From positions 1 through 44,474 of the IMG/VR virus record IMGVR_UViG_3300020020_000076: DNA of 44,474 nt; one strand, given 5' to 3'. Origin of the DNA: a virus. The notes under the pieces are model-generated. The model worked only from the letters and a program-made list of their open reading frames with translations, had not been told where the DNA came from and ran no database searches. Shown here piece after piece: positions 1,999 through 44,474 of this stretch; position 1 is the first letter of the stretch; each line of letters starts with the position of its first letter. The position numbers were made by a program, and so were the translations under genes.

Positions 1999-2221
1999 CG
2001 TCCGAATACCTGCATAGCCCAAAACGAAATCGATGGATTCTAGGGCCGTTTCCGGGCATTTAAAGAGGCATAGACATTCTAGGTATGACGCATTAAAGTT
2101 GCTTAATCAAATAAATGTGCTTTTACTGCAACTTAACAGCGACCAAAATCGTCAAATATTACGTATCCACGTTAGATACGACACGACAAACTACACCAAA
2201 AGGGACACTACAGAAAACACT

Positions 2222-3526
2222 ATGGCATGGCATATCACTAGCTCCTCTACTCAAGAGTTTAAATGCGACTCATGTGGGGATATGATCCTCAAAGGCAAGG
2301 ATCGCAGATGGAACAATATCACTCACAAGAGCATGCACCGCATATGCTACGACTCACATATCCTCATGACTGGCACCGTTTCAGATGATGGCCCCGCTGT
2401 AAACGAACCATCTACTCATACAACCCACAATCCCGCCCCTACGGCTCCGGCTACGCCGTCGCGCCCATCCATCCCTCCTACTCCTAAAGATGCGTCTCAA
2501 CCCATCCCAAGCCCCACAAGCCCTACTCCTGTGCCATCCCCTGTCACGCCATGCCCCACGGACAAGCGATCCTCTTTAGGGACTGACATGATGACCCAAG
2601 CTGTCATACAAGTAGTCGACGTTCTAATGGAAGATCGCATTAAAGCCCTCGAATCAGAACTCTCCAAATCTCAAGTCACCACAATCGAACACGTCATCAC
2701 TGTTCCCGATATCGGCACATTCAAAGCCCCTGCAAACGCTCACCCACTCTTGCCAGAAATCATGTCTGATCTCTTCCAGGGACTCATACCGTGGTTTCAA
2801 GGCCCGGCGGGTTCAGGAAAGACTTCACTTGCACAGTCTCTCAAAGACGCCATGAAAGTCTCACGTTTCATCTACATGACGTTCTCTGAAGGATCGACCA
2901 AGAGCGAAGCAACTGGTTTCAGAGACATGTCTAGCCAATACTGCGAGTCTAAGCTATACGATGCCGTTAAAAATGGCGACTGCATTTGTCTAGTAGATGA
3001 GTACGACAATACCAATGGCAACTTGGCCACTGTTCTCAACACTGGTTACGCCAATCGCCTGTGGGATTTCCCGCATGAGCAAGTAGTTCAGCATGAGACA
3101 TGCTACATGGTGATCGCCACTAATACAGACTGCCGCGGAAACGATCAACTCTATCCAGAGCGCGCTGCAATGGGCGCTGCTACCATTGACCGTTTCGTAC
3201 ATTACCAAATTGGCTACGATGAAGTAAAAGAGCTACAGTGGGCACTCAATAATGCCCCTCAAGCCAAACATGACCTAGTTCGTGAATGGGTCAAAATCGT
3301 CCAGAAAATCCGCGCCTCTGTAGCTAGTCAAAACCTTCAATTGGCCGTTACTCCTCGTGCTAGCATCTTTGGAGCTAAGAAGATTGCAGCTGGTTTCTAT
3401 GACTCCAAAGATTGGCGAACTCTAGCATCGCGTGTGATCTTCAGAGGCATCGATCCAACTGTATCTATCCTGTTAGACTCATGCTTCCCTTCCGCTGCAT
3501 CTACTCAGAACCGGAGTGCACGCTAA
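2222..3526 (+). CDS. CobS/MoxR-like AAA+ ATPase with N-terminal zinc ribbon, 434 aa
   Basis: Residues about 10-45 carry CDSCGDM...H...C, a probable zinc ribbon. A Pro/Ser/Thr-rich linker of about 55 residues follows (PTAPATPSRPSIPPTPKD). The AAA+ core has Walker A GPAGSGKTS (about residue 195), a Walker B-like CICLVDEYD, a sensor-1-like VIATNTD and an RFVHYQI segment typical of CobS/MoxR-type ATPases. Such ATPases usually remodel a partner encoded next door, here the DUF7192-like gene overlapping by one base (TAATG). The ATG at 2222 opens the conserved part; an in-frame ATG at 2033 would add 63 atypical residues. Neither start has a clear ribosome binding site. The role in infection is unknown. 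Confidence 0.8.
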   Translation: MAWHITSSSTQEFKCDSCGDMILKGKDRRWNNITHKSMHRICYDSHILMTGTVSDDGPAVNEPSTHTTHNPAPTAPATPSRPSIPPTPKDASQPIPSPTSPTPVPSPVTPCPTDKRSSLGTDMMTQAVIQVVDVLMEDRIKALESELSKSQVTTIEHVITVPDIGTFKAPANAHPLLPEIMSDLFQGLIPWFQGPAGSGKTSLAQSLKDAMKVSRFIYMTFSEGSTKSEATGFRDMSSQYCESKLYDAVKNGDCICLVDEYDNTNGNLATVLNTGYANRLWDFPHEQVVQHETCYMVIATNTDCRGNDQLYPERAAMGAATIDRFVHYQIGYDEVKELQWALNNAPQAKHDLVREWVKIVQKIRASVASQNLQLAVTPRASIFGAKKIAAGFYDSKDWRTLASRVIFRGIDPTVSILLDSCFPSAASTQNRSAR

Positions 3527-11962: not shown

Positions 11963-12851
11963 CTTGCTTACCAACAATAATCAACTAATCTACGCTTTCG
12001 ACAGTCAACAACTCTCTGCATGGCAGATGTGTCAACAGAAGTTCGACTTAAGCTATGTTAAGCATTTGGAGTATAGAACCCAGCCTCCAGGCATCCGCAA
12101 GGGGGCAGTCATGCACCGATGCTACGAGAGCTTCTACCTGACCGAGATTGCGGGAGGGACCTATCAGGAATGCGTCCAGACGGCCACCCAGGCCCTCCTC
12201 GACGCTGCGACCTCCACCGGGATGCCCCAGGAGGAACTGACCTTGTGCCTCATCAAGGCCACCTCCTACTTCGAGGCTCATCGAGAACCAATCTACAAGC
12301 CTATCAAAGTAGAAACGGGCTTCTCGCATCCAATCTATGAATCTCCTCAGATCAAAATCTTGTATGAGGGACGCATTGACTTACTCGTAAGACTCAACTA
12401 TAATAATCAACTCGCATGGGTAGATCACAAGAACTACTTGATCAAAGAAAAACCCTCTTTCAACACTAACCAATTCTACGGATATACTTGGATTATGTAC
12501 AAGCTTTTCTCTGGAGAGTACTCCGGTCAGGGAATGCAAGATTGCACATGGATGGCAGAGTCTAATAAGGGACCAGCAGCCCATGATATGTTTATGCAAT
12601 CTTTTACATATGACCAGGTAGTAGAATGGGAGAAACAAACTATCACTTCTCTCTTAGAAATGGCAGCATACATGAACTCACGTAATTGGAGATTTGCTCA
12701 GCCTCCTCAGAAGAACATCTTCTCATGCACTGCTGGAAAATATGGGGGATGCAAGTTCATGGGCGTTTGTCATGCTGGAAACCAAGAAAGCCAAGAATAT
12801 CAGCAGATTATAAAACTCAAGCCCAAGCAAGAGAAGTGGTCCGCATGGTAA
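11925..12851 (+). CDS. PD-(D/E)XK nuclease, Cas4/RecB type, 308 aa
   Basis: Core motifs are GRIDLLV (metal-binding Asp) and VDHKNY (the D-x-K of the PD-(D/E)XK fold), around residues 145-165. Four cysteines, one at WQMCQQKF (about residue 35) and three at SCTAGKYGGCKFMGVC near the C-terminus, match the iron-sulphur staple of Cas4/AddB-type nucleases. Phage members process DNA ends for recombination with a RecA-like partner, here the Sak4-like gene at 14283. The ATG at 11925 overlaps the previous gene; a TTG at 11967 is the alternative. Codons between about 12081 and 12280 are strikingly GC-rich (see separate entry). Confidence 0.85.
   Translation: MSARQNRSTKKNNLLTNNNQLIYAFDSQQLSAWQMCQQKFDLSYVKHLEYRTQPPGIRKGAVMHRCYESFYLTEIAGGTYQECVQTATQALLDAATSTGMPQEELTLCLIKATSYFEAHREPIYKPIKVETGFSHPIYESPQIKILYEGRIDLLVRLNYNNQLAWVDHKNYLIKEKPSFNTNQFYGYTWIMYKLFSGEYSGQGMQDCTWMAESNKGPAAHDMFMQSFTYDQVVEWEKQTITSLLEMAAYMNSRNWRFAQPPQKNIFSCTAGKYGGCKFMGVCHAGNQESQEYQQIIKLKPKQEKWSAW
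12081..12280 (+). other. GC-rich island inside the nuclease gene
   Basis: 126 of these 200 bases are G or C (63%), against about 39% in 12421-12540. Third codon positions are mostly G or C (CAG GCC CTC CTC GAC), unlike the A/T-ending codons on both sides, yet the frame stays open. This suggests intragenic replacement from a GC-richer relative, or a chimeric assembly. Confidence 0.75.
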
Positions 12852-12885: not shown

Positions 12886-13392
12886 ATGAATTCACAAAAC
12901 AAAGCTCTCACTATCTACTATACTGTCGGTCTTCCAGGCTCCGGTAAAACAACTTGGGCCTACGAGATGCAGCAACTTCTTGCAGAGAAGGGAAACGCCG
13001 AAGTAGTCCTGATCTCTTTAGATGACATCCGCAGAATGTACAACGTAAACTTCAACATCGACACCGAATTCTTAGCCCGACGTGCATGGATTGCTAGCAT
13101 ACAGGCTGCTCTAAGTCTAGGCTGGGATGTAATAGTTCACGATACTAATCTCAATCCCAAGTGGATCAAATCCATCACAGAGAAAGCTATTGAGTACTCT
13201 GCATCAGTAATAAGAGTAGATCATTTTCTTACTGTACCTTTAGAGACTTGTCTAGAGCGCAACTCGACAAGAATTCTTGCAGAAGCAGTTCCCTCTTCTG
13301 CGATCTTTCGCATGTATGAGAAGTGGATCTTATCTCAACGATATCTCGAATACAAAGACATTACTTCAGAAAAGGATCAAATACCTGCATGA
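12886..13392 (+). CDS. Polynucleotide 5'-kinase-like P-loop protein, 168 aa
   Basis: Walker A VGLPGSGKTTWA lies near the N-terminus, followed by ISLDDIRRM and, at about residue 85, VIVHDTNLNPKW. The P-loop, DDIR and D-T-N order is that of the kinase domain of T4 Pnk/AAA_33 proteins, which phosphorylate 5' ends of DNA or RNA during repair. Only the kinase half is present, with no 3'-phosphatase motif. The start has no clear ribosome binding site. It overlaps the next gene (ATGA). Confidence 0.8.
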   Translation: MNSQNKALTIYYTVGLPGSGKTTWAYEMQQLLAEKGNAEVVLISLDDIRRMYNVNFNIDTEFLARRAWIASIQAALSLGWDVIVHDTNLNPKWIKSITEKAIEYSASVIRVDHFLTVPLETCLERNSTRILAEAVPSSAIFRMYEKWILSQRYLEYKDITSEKDQIPA

Positions 13393-14049: not shown

Positions 14050-14292
14050 ATGCCCTTAGACACAAAAGATGAAGTAATCATCCAACTAGAACTACAACTT
14101 GAGATTTTGGCAATCGCAGCCGATAGACTCGTCAACTTTGCATGGTCTGGTGTTACTGTATCGTGGGATAACGGAAATACAAGATCCTCAGAAGCAGAGG
14201 CTTATCTACAATCGAATATCAATAAAGTACGAGAAGTCTTGAAAAATTTTGAATTACCAAACTCAAAGGATGACAAAATCAAATGCACTTAG
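14050..14292 (+). CDS. Hypothetical protein, 80 aa
   Basis: The ATG at 14050 stands one base after the previous stop, with AGGAG 12 nt upstream; an upstream in-frame ATG at 14017 lies within the previous gene. Mostly helical and acidic (DEVIIQLELQLEILAIAADR, then NINKVREVLKNF). It overlaps the Sak4-like start by 10 bases. Function unknown. Confidence 0.6.
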   Translation: MPLDTKDEVIIQLELQLEILAIAADRLVNFAWSGVTVSWDNGNTRSSEAEAYLQSNINKVREVLKNFELPNSKDDKIKCT

Positions 14293-15041
14293 ACGACATA
14301 ACACCACTTACAAGATTTTTCGGTCTTTTCGCCGGACCCTCTGGAGACGGCAAGACATGTGCAGCGGTTTCTTTCCCAGGACCCATTTACTGCTTTGATC
14401 TAGATGATCGCATCAAGGGCGCTCTCGCAGCAAAGAAATGGCTCGGTAAGATAGATCTAGAGTTTCACAGATACTTCGGCTATGCAGACATCGAGGTTAA
14501 GTTAAATGAGTTCGTGACGCAAATAAATGCCCGAACCTTCAAATACAAAACTGTTATATTTGATAGCATTACTGCTTCTTCTCGTAGCTATATCCAAGAA
14601 GCCGTCAAACTTGGAGTAAAGGGAGACACCTCAGACGACGGAAAGCCTCGCCGTCTCGGAACTGTCTACATGCCCGGATGGAACGCTTATAATTACGAAA
14701 GTATCGCCCACTACAACGTGATCATCGCATACTTGAAAGCGTTCCCCTGTAATGTTATTATTTCTGCGCATAAATCGGAACGATTTAACAAAAAAGGCGA
14801 GATCTCTGGAGTGGATATCCTCGCAAGACCCAAGATAGCAGCAGAACTTCCAGTCTACTTTGATGAAGTTTATGAGTTTCAACGAGATCACAACGATGTC
14901 AAAAACTCAACTAAGTATACCGTCAAATTTAGAGGAGATCTTGCAAAAACAGTCATGGAGAAAGCTCCCTTTGGTGAAGTAGATATCACCGAAAAGAATT
15001 TCTACGAACTCCTCAAGTCATACAATACCTCACTCACCTAA
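14283..15041 (+). CDS. RecA-like ATPase, Sak4 type single-strand annealing/recombination protein, 252 aa
   Basis: Walker A AGPSGDGKTC (about residue 17), Walker B TVIFDSITA (about residue 94) and a later NVIISAHKSE strand typical of the AAA_24/Sak4 branch of RecA folds. The length fits the family. Sak4 proteins bind single-stranded DNA and promote annealing with a partner ssDNA-binding protein, often encoded next to them; the gene at 15332 is the candidate. With the nuclease at 11925 and the helicase at 9162 it forms a recombination module. Confidence 0.8.
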   Translation: MHLDDITPLTRFFGLFAGPSGDGKTCAAVSFPGPIYCFDLDDRIKGALAAKKWLGKIDLEFHRYFGYADIEVKLNEFVTQINARTFKYKTVIFDSITASSRSYIQEAVKLGVKGDTSDDGKPRRLGTVYMPGWNAYNYESIAHYNVIIAYLKAFPCNVIISAHKSERFNKKGEISGVDILARPKIAAELPVYFDEVYEFQRDHNDVKNSTKYTVKFRGDLAKTVMEKAPFGEVDITEKNFYELLKSYNTSLT

Positions 15042-15331: not shown

Positions 15332-15733
15332 ATGGCTATTCTCACAGTAAGCAAGAAAGCACTCGACGCAGGAAAAGCGTGGACTCCCGACTGGTACAAA
15401 GTTACTTTTGAACGCATGGAGGGGCCTGAATTGGCAGCATCAGGGAAGAGCAACAACTACAAGTGCTTCTTCACCAACAAAGATGGCTCTGAGTTAATGC
15501 AGTACTACAACGACTCAGAAGGCTTGATTGGCAACTTAGTCGAAGTCTATGCGGCAGCCGCAGATGTCCCTTATGCTGAGTGCGCCGATAAGCCCTTGGA
15601 TTTCGAGAAGATCAAGGGCGCTCAACTCTACATTCGCGTAGACAACGAAGTCTACAAGAAAGATCCCTCTGCCCCTGGCAGGATCATGAACAAGATCTCG
15701 GCCTATCAGCCTATCTCCCAGGCGCCGTTCTAA
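15332..15733 (+). CDS. Candidate single-stranded DNA-binding protein, 133 aa
   Basis: A beta-rich protein with KALDAGKAWTPDWYKVTFER, NNYKCFFTNKDG and a C-terminal KKDPSAPGRIMNKISAYQ. The size, beta-strand pattern and position beside a Sak4-type ATPase resemble phage SSB-like proteins (DUF669/DUF2815-type), but the classic acidic C-terminal tail is missing. The purine-rich leader (AAAGAGAGAAAATAACCAA) may be the ribosome binding region. Assignment is mostly from context. Confidence 0.5.
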   Translation: MAILTVSKKALDAGKAWTPDWYKVTFERMEGPELAASGKSNNYKCFFTNKDGSELMQYYNDSEGLIGNLVEVYAAAADVPYAECADKPLDFEKIKGAQLYIRVDNEVYKKDPSAPGRIMNKISAYQPISQAPF

Positions 15734-16769: not shown

Positions 16770-16927
16770 TGCTTAACGTAAATCAACATTCTCTTCTAAA
16801 AGAGCAGCATGCTCTTGAGTTAAGAATAAAATCTCTTCAGGAGATGATTTCGGATTTGATTAAGAAGAATCGTGCTCTTGAGACTGAGAACGCATTACTA
16901 AGAGCGGGGATAGATCCAAGAAAATGA
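16769..16927 (+). CDS. Coiled-coil microprotein, 52 aa
   Basis: A single predicted amphipathic helix (LLKEQHALELRIKSLQEMIS, then NRALETENALLRAG) with leucine-zipper-like spacing. Start and stop are coupled to both neighbours (TAATG before, ATGA after), so it is probably translated together with the DNA polymerase and may be its accessory subunit or a dimeric regulator. Confidence 0.55.
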   Translation: MLNVNQHSLLKEQHALELRIKSLQEMISDLIKKNRALETENALLRAGIDPRK

Positions 16928-19401
16928 TTTCTTCTTTCGGTCCTACAAATGCCAAGATCTTCATCTTGGGTGATTATCCATCTCAGGGAGAGCTAGAGAA
17001 TAACTCTGCTCTCTATGGGCATACTTCTAATTCACTACACTCTCTTTTCTCCGAAGCAGGTATTCACTTAGATTCTTGTTTTAGGAGCATCTACTTAAGA
17101 GAGAATATCCACGAAGTCTTAATTAAGATCCGCAACAAGAACAAGGGCAAACGTACAACAGGCTATGCCCTTCTCTTAGACTCTAAGTACGATCAGCTTC
17201 GTAACTACGTCATCGAAGAGTTAAAGTTAATCAAACCAAAAGTGATCGTTCCGCTTGGAGAAGCGGCTTTGCGCTTCATAACAGGAGAAAAGAGTATACA
17301 TGACTTTCGTGGTTCAACCCTCCATCTCGCAGACTCCCTCAAGCTCTCAACAGATCTCCACTCCACATACGTTGTCCCACTTGTCCATCCAAGAGAATAC
17401 TTTGCAGATAACTCTCAACGATTTATCGCGGCTTTCGATATCGCAAAGATCGTCCGATTATCTCAGACACCTTTTTATGATCCGCTGCAAAAGTATAAAG
17501 TCTGGGTCTGCCGCTCCTCTGCTGAATTAGAATCTTTTTTTCATAGACATCGCGCAGCGCCTTTCTGGACGTTTGACATAGAAACCCATGCAGGATTTAT
17601 CACCTGCATCTCTTTTTGTGGAGACGGAGTAGAAGCCATCTCAGTCCCTCTTTTGGATAATAAGACTCCCTTATCAGAGAGAGCTTTAATGTATTTCAAA
17701 GTGGCTAACTTCTTGGCTTCAGATAAGCCCAAAGTAAATCAGAATATTAAGTTCGATGCTACTTTTCTTGAGGCATGGGGATATGAAGTTAATAATATCC
17801 TCGACGATACGATGATCCTAGCCCATTCTATCTATGGAGAGTTACGCAAGAGTCTAGGCTTTCTAACTTCCGTCCATACAGATATCCCCTACTACAAAGA
17901 CGAAGGGAAAGAGTTCGATCCGCGTAAACATACAAAAGATCAGCTTTTCTTGTATAACGCAAAAGATGCATTAGCCACTTGGCAAGTATATGTCTCCCAA
18001 GTGAAAGATGCAAAAACCACAGGAGTCTGGGATTTTCATGTGCGCGGCCCGCGGAAGTGGTTTTCAATCTACAAGAAAATGGATTCTCAAGGTTTCCTGC
18101 TAGATCATGATCGCCGATTAGAGTTACTCGACCGATATACAAACATCTCCGAGTATACGAGAGACTCTCTTGCCGACCTGACTAACAATCCAAAATTTAA
18201 TCCCAACTCATCCAAACAGTGCTGTGATTTAATTTACGGTGAACTCAAGTGTCCTGTCCAATGGCGTAAAGATGCCGCAGGAGATAACGTCAAAACTACA
18301 GATGAAGATGCTCTAGAAGAACTTATCTTAAACTTCGGCGCCGCTCCTACTGTCGCAGAAATACTACAGTTAATGATCAAGTCTCGTAAATTGCATAGAA
18401 TTATAAACTTTCTAAATAACTTGTATGACATAGATGATCGTGTCCGTCAATCTACCAAACAGACCGGAACGGAGAACGGCAGAACTTCTGCGTCAAAGAG
18501 CATCTTTAGGCGAAACATTTTTCATCAAGGCGGTTTTCATCCAGGCGGTAGTCAAGGCGGTTATAGTTTCGATCAAGCTAATACAGGTTACTCTTTCCAG
18601 ACTATCCCAAAGCATGGTTTCAGGCTACCTTCAGGAGAGATCTTAGGAGACGATCTAATGTCTATATACGTCCCTTCTCCTGGTTACTGTTTCGTTGGGG
18701 GAGACTTATCCCAAGCAGAAGCCCGAGTAGTAGCAGTCTTAGCAGAAGACTGGGACTTATTACAGGGCTTTGACACCAGAGACATTCACAAAGAAACAGC
18801 CTCTTGGATCTACGAGTGCTCAGTAGACGACATCAAAAAGCCCAGTTTCGAGAGAGACTTAGGTAAGATGACCCGTCATGCTGGAAACCTCGACATGCAG
18901 TATCGTACTCTTGCACTCAGAGCCCACATCCCCCAGCCTTTCGCTTTAAAAGTCATGCAACGTTTCCATAACAATGCCCCCAAAGTGAGAGGAATCTTTC
19001 ATAAGACCATCGCAGACGAGGTTTCCCGTTCCAGGTTATTAGTCTCCCCCCAAGGTCGTCAACGTTTCTTTTTCGGGAAGATCAACGAAGATCTCTTTAG
19101 AGAAGCATATTCGTTCATTCCGCAAGCCACTATCTCCGATCAGATGAAAAACATCATGTTGTATATTCACGAAAGAATGGATGCCCGATTCATCTATGAA
19201 GCTCATGACGGAGTTATGGCAGAACAGAAAATAGAAGAAGCAGAGCGTTTTTTAGATCTATTTAAAGAAGCCTCAGAAAGAACAATTGACTTTCGAGCAG
19301 GAACCATCCGCAGAGACATCAATCTTCTAGTTCCCGCAGAACTGGATTACTCGTTAACAAATGCCGGTGAAATGAAGCCCTACAAGGGGATTCTATCATG
19401 A
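16924..19401 (+). CDS. polA: DNA polymerase A with UDG-like N-terminus and 3'-5' exonuclease, 825 aa
   Basis: Residues 1-175 resemble a uracil-DNA-glycosylase-like domain (ILGDYPSQGELENNSALYG, later PLVHPREYF). The 3'-5' exonuclease follows with DIE (about 218-220), NQNIKFDATF and YNAKDALATW, all three metal-binding motifs intact. The polymerase domain has motif A GGDLSQAEARV (about 592), the fingers K/R-rich segment GKMTRHAGN (about 648) and motif C AHDG (about 762), where Gly replaces the usual Glu. This is the replicative polymerase of the phage. The ATG overlaps the preceding stop (ATGA). Confidence 0.93.
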   Translation: MISSFGPTNAKIFILGDYPSQGELENNSALYGHTSNSLHSLFSEAGIHLDSCFRSIYLRENIHEVLIKIRNKNKGKRTTGYALLLDSKYDQLRNYVIEELKLIKPKVIVPLGEAALRFITGEKSIHDFRGSTLHLADSLKLSTDLHSTYVVPLVHPREYFADNSQRFIAAFDIAKIVRLSQTPFYDPLQKYKVWVCRSSAELESFFHRHRAAPFWTFDIETHAGFITCISFCGDGVEAISVPLLDNKTPLSERALMYFKVANFLASDKPKVNQNIKFDATFLEAWGYEVNNILDDTMILAHSIYGELRKSLGFLTSVHTDIPYYKDEGKEFDPRKHTKDQLFLYNAKDALATWQVYVSQVKDAKTTGVWDFHVRGPRKWFSIYKKMDSQGFLLDHDRRLELLDRYTNISEYTRDSLADLTNNPKFNPNSSKQCCDLIYGELKCPVQWRKDAAGDNVKTTDEDALEELILNFGAAPTVAEILQLMIKSRKLHRIINFLNNLYDIDDRVRQSTKQTGTENGRTSASKSIFRRNIFHQGGFHPGGSQGGYSFDQANTGYSFQTIPKHGFRLPSGEILGDDLMSIYVPSPGYCFVGGDLSQAEARVVAVLAEDWDLLQGFDTRDIHKETASWIYECSVDDIKKPSFERDLGKMTRHAGNLDMQYRTLALRAHIPQPFALKVMQRFHNNAPKVRGIFHKTIADEVSRSRLLVSPQGRQRFFFGKINEDLFREAYSFIPQATISDQMKNIMLYIHERMDARFIYEAHDGVMAEQKIEEAERFLDLFKEASERTIDFRAGTIRRDINLLVPAELDYSLTNAGEMKPYKGILS

Positions 19402-43862: not shown

Positions 43863-44474
43863 TTAGGCCGAAGCCTCTTCACGCGCGGCAGCTTCTTCTG
43901 CTTCTTTTTTGTGTTGTGCTGAAGCCTGGGCAGCGGAGATCTCTTCATACATGATCTTCACAGCGCCTTCAAGATTGCCCTTCTGAGTGAGGTCGATGCT
44001 CAAGGCGACGTTCACACGAGCGACTGTCTCGTATGAGAAGATCCAGTAGTAGTGAAGGAAGATGGGCCAGTCCGCGGGGAAAGCATTACCAAGCATCTCA
44101 GTGACAGGGATTCCGTAGCTAACTTGAGGTCCGTCTTGGGTAGGAATTGCGACAAGGTAAGTTTCAGGCATCGAGACGGAAAACTGTTCGAAGTATTCCT
44201 GCTGAAAGATGTCTAGAGCCTCTTGACCGATGGCGATACTACAACATTGATCAGGATTGACGCCCTCGTATGTTGCAGCGTACTTCTCTAATGCTGCGAG
44301 TTCGTCAGTGCTGTAAAACCGGTTTGGGGGCGCCTCTGGAATGGGATCGTCGGGATCTGCCGGAGGAGGGGGGCAATCTGGAGGGGGAGGACAGTATGAG
44401 GAGGATTCATTTCCTGCAACATAGTTCTCTCCTTTAGCCATCTGTTCTGGTTCGGGGAATGGTTCGGGAATGGG
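43863..44474 (-). CDS. Hypothetical proline-rich protein, 3' part (starts at 177)
   Basis: This is the main body of the 214-residue protein that begins at base 177. After the Pro/Cys-rich N-terminus comes an ordinary globular region of about 150 residues and an Ala/Glu/Lys-rich, probably helical C-terminus ending EEAAAREEASA. There is no signal peptide, membrane segment or catalytic motif that I can name. It is followed by a structured non-coding stretch (43485-43862) and then the metallopeptidase-like gene. Its place next to the packaging genes suggests a virion or packaging accessory, but that is inference only. Confidence 0.7.
   Translation of the reverse strand, partial: PIPEPFPEPEQMAKGENYVAGNESSSYCPPPPDCPPPPADPDDPIPEAPPNRFYSTDELAALEKYAATYEGVNPDQCCSIAIGQEALDIFQQEYFEQFSVSMPETYLVAIPTQDGPQVSYGIPVTEMLGNAFPADWPIFLHYYWIFSYETVARVNVALSIDLTQKGNLEGAVKIMYEEISAAQASAQHKKEAEEAAAREEASA
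44331..44474. repeat. Terminal overlap, right copy
   Basis: This is the second copy of the first 144 bases. The two mismatches change Pro/Gln and Val/Phe in the encoded proline-rich protein. They may be population variants or read errors. Confidence 0.85.

Follow-up and report, generated by a model that had tools for sequence, protein, structure and literature searches.

Sub-gene fragments are shuffled between diverged phage proteins, some core replication proteins included (PMC10684548). The annealing proteins of phages (SSAPs) pair DNA that is short (40 to 50 bp) and divergent (PMC8093625), and purified Sak4 from phage HK620 anneals strands together with its SSB, without strand exchange (PMC5928155). 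Here, we describe a GC-rich block within a nuclease gene of one virus record (44,474 bases), all of which was analyzed and which we call the window. The block is probably an unusually clear case of the known sub-gene mosaicism of phages and not a new mechanism.

As in the published shuffling of phage protein fragments (PMC10684548), the event would be the exchange of a sub-gene segment between diverged phage proteins. The published cases involve a high-identity fragment shared between sequenced genomes, whereas the exchange proposed here is deduced from composition, with no donor in hand, and its unit, unlike theirs, would be a helical sub-module inside one nuclease domain. A Sak4-like (AAA_24) gene lies near this nuclease, likening the locus to systems of SSAP-mediated recombination (PMC8093625, PMC5928155); annealing was seen by experiment in those systems, whereas a role of the Sak4-like protein in the patch is one that we infer.

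The nuclease gene and its surroundings

The gene that carries the block (Table 1) encodes a RecB/AddB/Cas4-fold PD-(D/E)XK nuclease with presumed Fe-S cysteines. The 308-aa protein matches the exonuclease family phrog_1218 in PHROG (E = 1e-20). It has no match of its own in Pfam, and 30 of the 32 aligned family members match PF12705 (PDDEXK_1) and 4 match Cas_Cas4. The AlphaFold2 model (pLDDT 86, pTM 0.83) aligns, with Z scores of 11 to 18, to chains of AdnA (9np6), AddB (3u44), an Argonaute-associated Cas4 (9iac), and a CRISPR Cas4 (8d3l), with which the protein shares the predicted fold, the PD-(D/E)XK motifs, and the 1+3 arrangement of cysteines. It differs from them in being a stand-alone phage protein with 10 to 16% identity to them and no helicase domain in its gene.

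The catalytic residues (the motif I histidine, the aspartate, and the (D/E)xK motif) are present, and conservation was assessed across 32 to 33 aligned homologues, in which each is invariant or found in over 90%. One N-terminal and three C-terminal cysteines (C36; C268, C276, and C282) form a layout that we take to be that of AddB/Cas4/Dna2-type Fe-S nucleases, and the cluster itself is presumed here. A previous inspection of the letters, which we call the sequence-only reading, had named the gene a Cas4/RecB-like nuclease.

The nuclease lies among the replication and recombination genes of a divergent tailed phage. Its neighbors encode an SNF2-type helicase, a polynucleotide-kinase-like protein, a Sak4-like ATPase, a DNA polymerase, and a primase-like protein, and the order of nuclease, ATPase, polymerase, and primase-like genes recurs in Desulfofustis phage LS06-2018-MD01, Manatee Spring phage MW202489, and Microcystis phage Mel-JY34. 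The polynucleotide-kinase-like gene (12886 to 13392; phrog_505, E = 3e-24; AAA_33) lies directly downstream of the nuclease, and the Sak4-like annealase gene lies 1.4 kb downstream. The polymerase, an 825-aa DNA polymerase A (16924 to 19401), unites an N-terminal uracil-DNA-glycosylase-superfamily domain and a 3'-5' exonuclease domain in one protein, and full-length homologues of it occur in related phages. Searches with the major capsid protein and the DNA polymerase found no close sister genome.

Table 1. Features of the nuclease gene and of the nearby annealing protein gene, in window coordinates
Feature	Position	Strand	Basis
RecB/AddB/Cas4-fold PD-(D/E)XK nuclease gene, 308 aa	11925..12851	+	phrog_1218, AlphaFold2, structure matches, synteny
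Codon of C36, first cysteine of presumed Fe-S cluster	12030..12032	+	Invariant in two homologue alignments
GC-rich block (residues 52-118), presumably replaced by horizontal transfer	12079..12277	+	63.8% GC, GC3 0.85, maximum-likelihood segment
Three predicted helices, residues 55-75, 80-97, and 102-118, coinciding with the block	12087..12278	+	Predicted structure, mean pLDDT about 92-98
Motif I (G60...H64), within the GC-rich block	12102..12116	+	G60 invariant, H64 nearly invariant in 32-33 aligned homologues
Nuclease core, motifs II/III: D152, D167-H-K169	12378..12431	+	D152 and K169 invariant; D167 and H168 nearly invariant
C268, C276, and C282, C-terminal cysteines of presumed Fe-S cluster	12726..12770	+	All three invariant
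Sak4-like (AAA_24) single-strand annealing protein, candidate recombination agent	14283..15041	+	PF13479, E 1e-11; phrog_124 Sak4-like, E 7e-15

A compositional block that coincides with a predicted helical module

A scan of the whole record returned the 199-bp block as its maximal scoring segment, and the block is also the maximum-likelihood segment. For comparison, GC is 42% across the remainder of the gene and 44% across the record as a whole. The 200-bp stretch with the highest GC (12078 to 12277; 63.5%) covers nearly the same bases. The record was also simulated 200 times with a third-order Markov model; the richest 200 bp peaked at 61.5%, and no simulation reached the block. Codon choice sets the block apart as well, with a GC3 that compares with 0.47 outside it in the same gene. 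Its GC3 scan statistic is 17.9, whereas synonymous resamplings that used the phage's own codon usage peaked at 11.0 (0 of 400 reached it), and as a synonymous GC3 excursion it ranks third in strength among 777 homologue-supported genes from related loci and the window, behind two Asn/Tyr repeat tracts. Because neither simulations nor resamplings ever reach the block, the contrast in composition is real, and the GC-rich block is confirmed as a compositional feature.

GC at the three codon positions is 0.56/0.49/0.85 within the block, 0.39/0.29/0.51 before it, and 0.44/0.35/0.46 after it, which is the profile of ordinary coding sequence from a GC-rich genome and not a uniform rise in GC. A two-segment likelihood scan located the left edge sharply (2-lnL support, 12068 to 12087) and the right edge less so (12234 to 12302). 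The edges carry no clear flanking repeat, only short imperfect ones. The sequence-only reading had described an island of about 200 bp with GC-ending codons, an unbroken frame, and abrupt edges, in surroundings of roughly 39% GC. The island, the codons, and the frame all hold up; abruptness holds for the left edge, the right one being softer, and the figure for the surroundings was too low.

The block ends fall in predicted loops around the helices of residues 55 to 118, which the model places between a short strand (residues 48 to 50) and the first long strand, at residue 124, so that, in the prediction, the block makes up an entire three-helix module. It measures 66 aa, and the equivalent segment in aligned homologues is roughly 59 to 93 residues long; this family-typical length indicates that the block took the place of a homologous piece and was not inserted. 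Because the block holds the motif I histidine, it is part of the catalytic domain. It does lie between the first Fe-S cysteine and the nuclease core, where the sequence-only reading had placed it, but is not merely a spacer there, since it includes G60 and H64 of motif I. The codon style of the core segment with motifs II and III is the phage's own.

Origin of the block

A set of 106 distinct homologues, drawn from related loci and from phage records, was used to ask how the same segment behaves elsewhere in the family. The difference in GC3 between the block segment and the rest of the gene is 0.00 ± 0.06 among these homologues (n = 106; maximum, 0.17) and 0.38 in the window; for total GC, the corresponding values are 0.016 ± 0.026 (maximum, 0.084) and about 0.21. 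The amino acid content follows, as evidenced by FYMINK residues, for which the block minus the rest of the protein gives -0.16 (16 points) in the window and -0.02 ± 0.06 in homologues. Homologues with the same GC-rich block at the same place and uniform divergence would have told against the exchange that the sequence-only reading proposed, and the block as a GC feature is absent from all 106. Because the core of the window nuclease is at most 31% identical to that of any homologue, these distant relatives show that the block is not a family trait and do not thereby date its origin.

Codon likelihoods, expressed in nats per codon relative to random synonymous choice, point to a GC-rich source. 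Under the phage's own usage, the block scores -0.09 and its flanks score +0.10. Under the usage of three GC-rich related loci, the signs are reversed: +0.29 and -0.25 for L003 (62% GC), +0.18 and -0.12 for L034 (57% GC), and +0.16 and -0.09 for L038 (56% GC). The fit of the block's codons rises with the GC content of the locus that supplies the usage (Spearman 0.95). The composition of the block is what long residence in a genome of about 55 to 62% GC would give, and the nuclease family has GC-rich members, in L034, L061, L038, and L003, that represent possible types of donor.

A donor was sought in phage records, IMG/VR, and GTDB genomes, and none was found; the pattern scans need an exact shared stretch of 8 residues, and donors below about 70% identity could, by our estimate, escape them. 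A blastn search returned only distant matches, to Vibrio and to other phages (best E, 0.2; 22% query coverage). One match, in a Sphingomonadaceae MAG (L007; 45% over 40 aa), lies in a uridylyltransferase-like gene, a name read from its translation, and was rejected as a chance match; four pattern matches (L188 to L191) were also set aside, as none is a relative of the nuclease. At the protein level, the similarity of the block to its relatives does not follow their GC content (Spearman 0.11, P = 0.26); if anything, the block resembles its relatives slightly less than one would expect for the family. In a tree of the flanks, the nuclease of the window stands by itself on a long branch, and thus the tree cannot place the block.

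Taken at its face, this evidence makes recent replacement of an internal segment of the nuclease gene, from a GC-rich relative, the best reading, and one that we consider probable. The sequence-only reading had raised such an exchange, and we find it supported in part. It is favored by the absence of the feature from homologues, by codons that fit GC-rich phages, and by the existence of GC-rich family members; the missing donor, the absence of conspecific genomes in which the earlier state would be visible, and the lack of a link between block similarity and GC weigh on the other side. What the data show directly is the composition, the break in codon style, the homology and length of the segment, its absence as a GC feature from relatives, and the conserved residues; that a transfer took place, from which donor, through which recombinase, and when is what we infer from them.

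An assembly or library chimera, the alternative named by the sequence-only reading, in which a block from another phage of the same sample was joined in silico, would borrow some of the same evidence, as GC-rich relatives of the nuclease do exist, and the sequence is an IMG/VR virus record without a second copy. However, misassemblies typically have one junction, whereas this one would have to join the sequence twice within 199 bp, both times in frame and at homologous positions, and restore the family length and all conserved residues. We regard it as unlikely.

Alternatively, the sequence could be native and under local selection, in which case its GC-rich codons would be imposed by RNA structure or by an antisense gene that overlaps it. 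The RNA folds somewhat more stably than shuffled versions do (z = -2.2), and an antisense open reading frame of 93 aa (12048 to 12329, minus strand) spans the block. However, the block has no Rfam match, the antisense frame has no PHROG match, and coding DNA that is rich in GC is expected to leave long frames open on its antisense strand. Moreover, the rise in GC extends to every codon position, as is normal for GC-rich genes, and 0 of the 106 homologues have the feature. The antisense or structured-RNA explanation is thus weakly supported, and local selection appears decidedly improbable. A chance fluctuation is very improbable indeed: phage genes vary, and GC3 windows reach 0.68 elsewhere in the record, but neither the 400 resamplings nor the 200 simulations attain the block, and only the two repeat tracts among the 777 genes exceed it.

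Under recent replacement, a phage of moderate GC content would have swapped about 200 bp of its nuclease gene for the homologous segment of a donor phage of roughly 55 to 62% GC. The exchange probably took place during co-infection of a cell, when a short patch recombined with a related nuclease gene, and the phage's own Sak4-like annealing protein plausibly helped. The exchanged piece would be a self-contained three-helix module that carries motif I, and the prediction is accordingly that the chimeric enzyme still folds, with all conserved catalytic and cysteine residues kept. The swap may have been retained because the module is self-contained, and it would be recent enough that codon usage has yet to drift toward that of the new genome.

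Implications and other GC excursions

If real, the block is a sub-gene mosaic so fresh that drift has not yet altered its codon usage. It would mean that a core recombination enzyme can take on a module of 66 residues from a diverged phage with no harm evident at its conserved residues, and that codon-level compositional scans can detect such exchanges without a sequenced donor. A broader proposal, that phage recombination nucleases trade whole structural sub-modules such as the motif I three-helix unit across very different GC contents, with the machinery editing its own gene at fold boundaries, seems to us quite unlikely.

Other excursions were considered as comparable cases and rejected. 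The second most GC-rich segment of the record (2432 to 2568) is a Pro/Ser/Thr-rich linker in a 497-aa AAA_5 ATPase (2033 to 3526); its GC3 is an ordinary 0.56, and its GC therefore comes from proline codons. The stronger GC3 excursions in related loci L048 (2457 to 3014) and L082 (5765 to 6316) are Asn/Tyr repeats; the protein there contains a long repeat whose codons nearly all end in C or G (GC3, 0.9 to 1.0), in an AT-rich genome. An excursion in L003 (7014 to 8039) was judged to be a wrong-frame open reading frame over the nuclease gene, and one in L065 (5331) was judged to be a non-homologous 5' extension of an open reading frame. Finally, two open reading frames of the window with raised GC3, at 43863 to 44441 (GC3 0.52; peak, 0.68) and 15332 to 15733 (GC3 0.63), have no PHROG matches and are possibly acquired genes.
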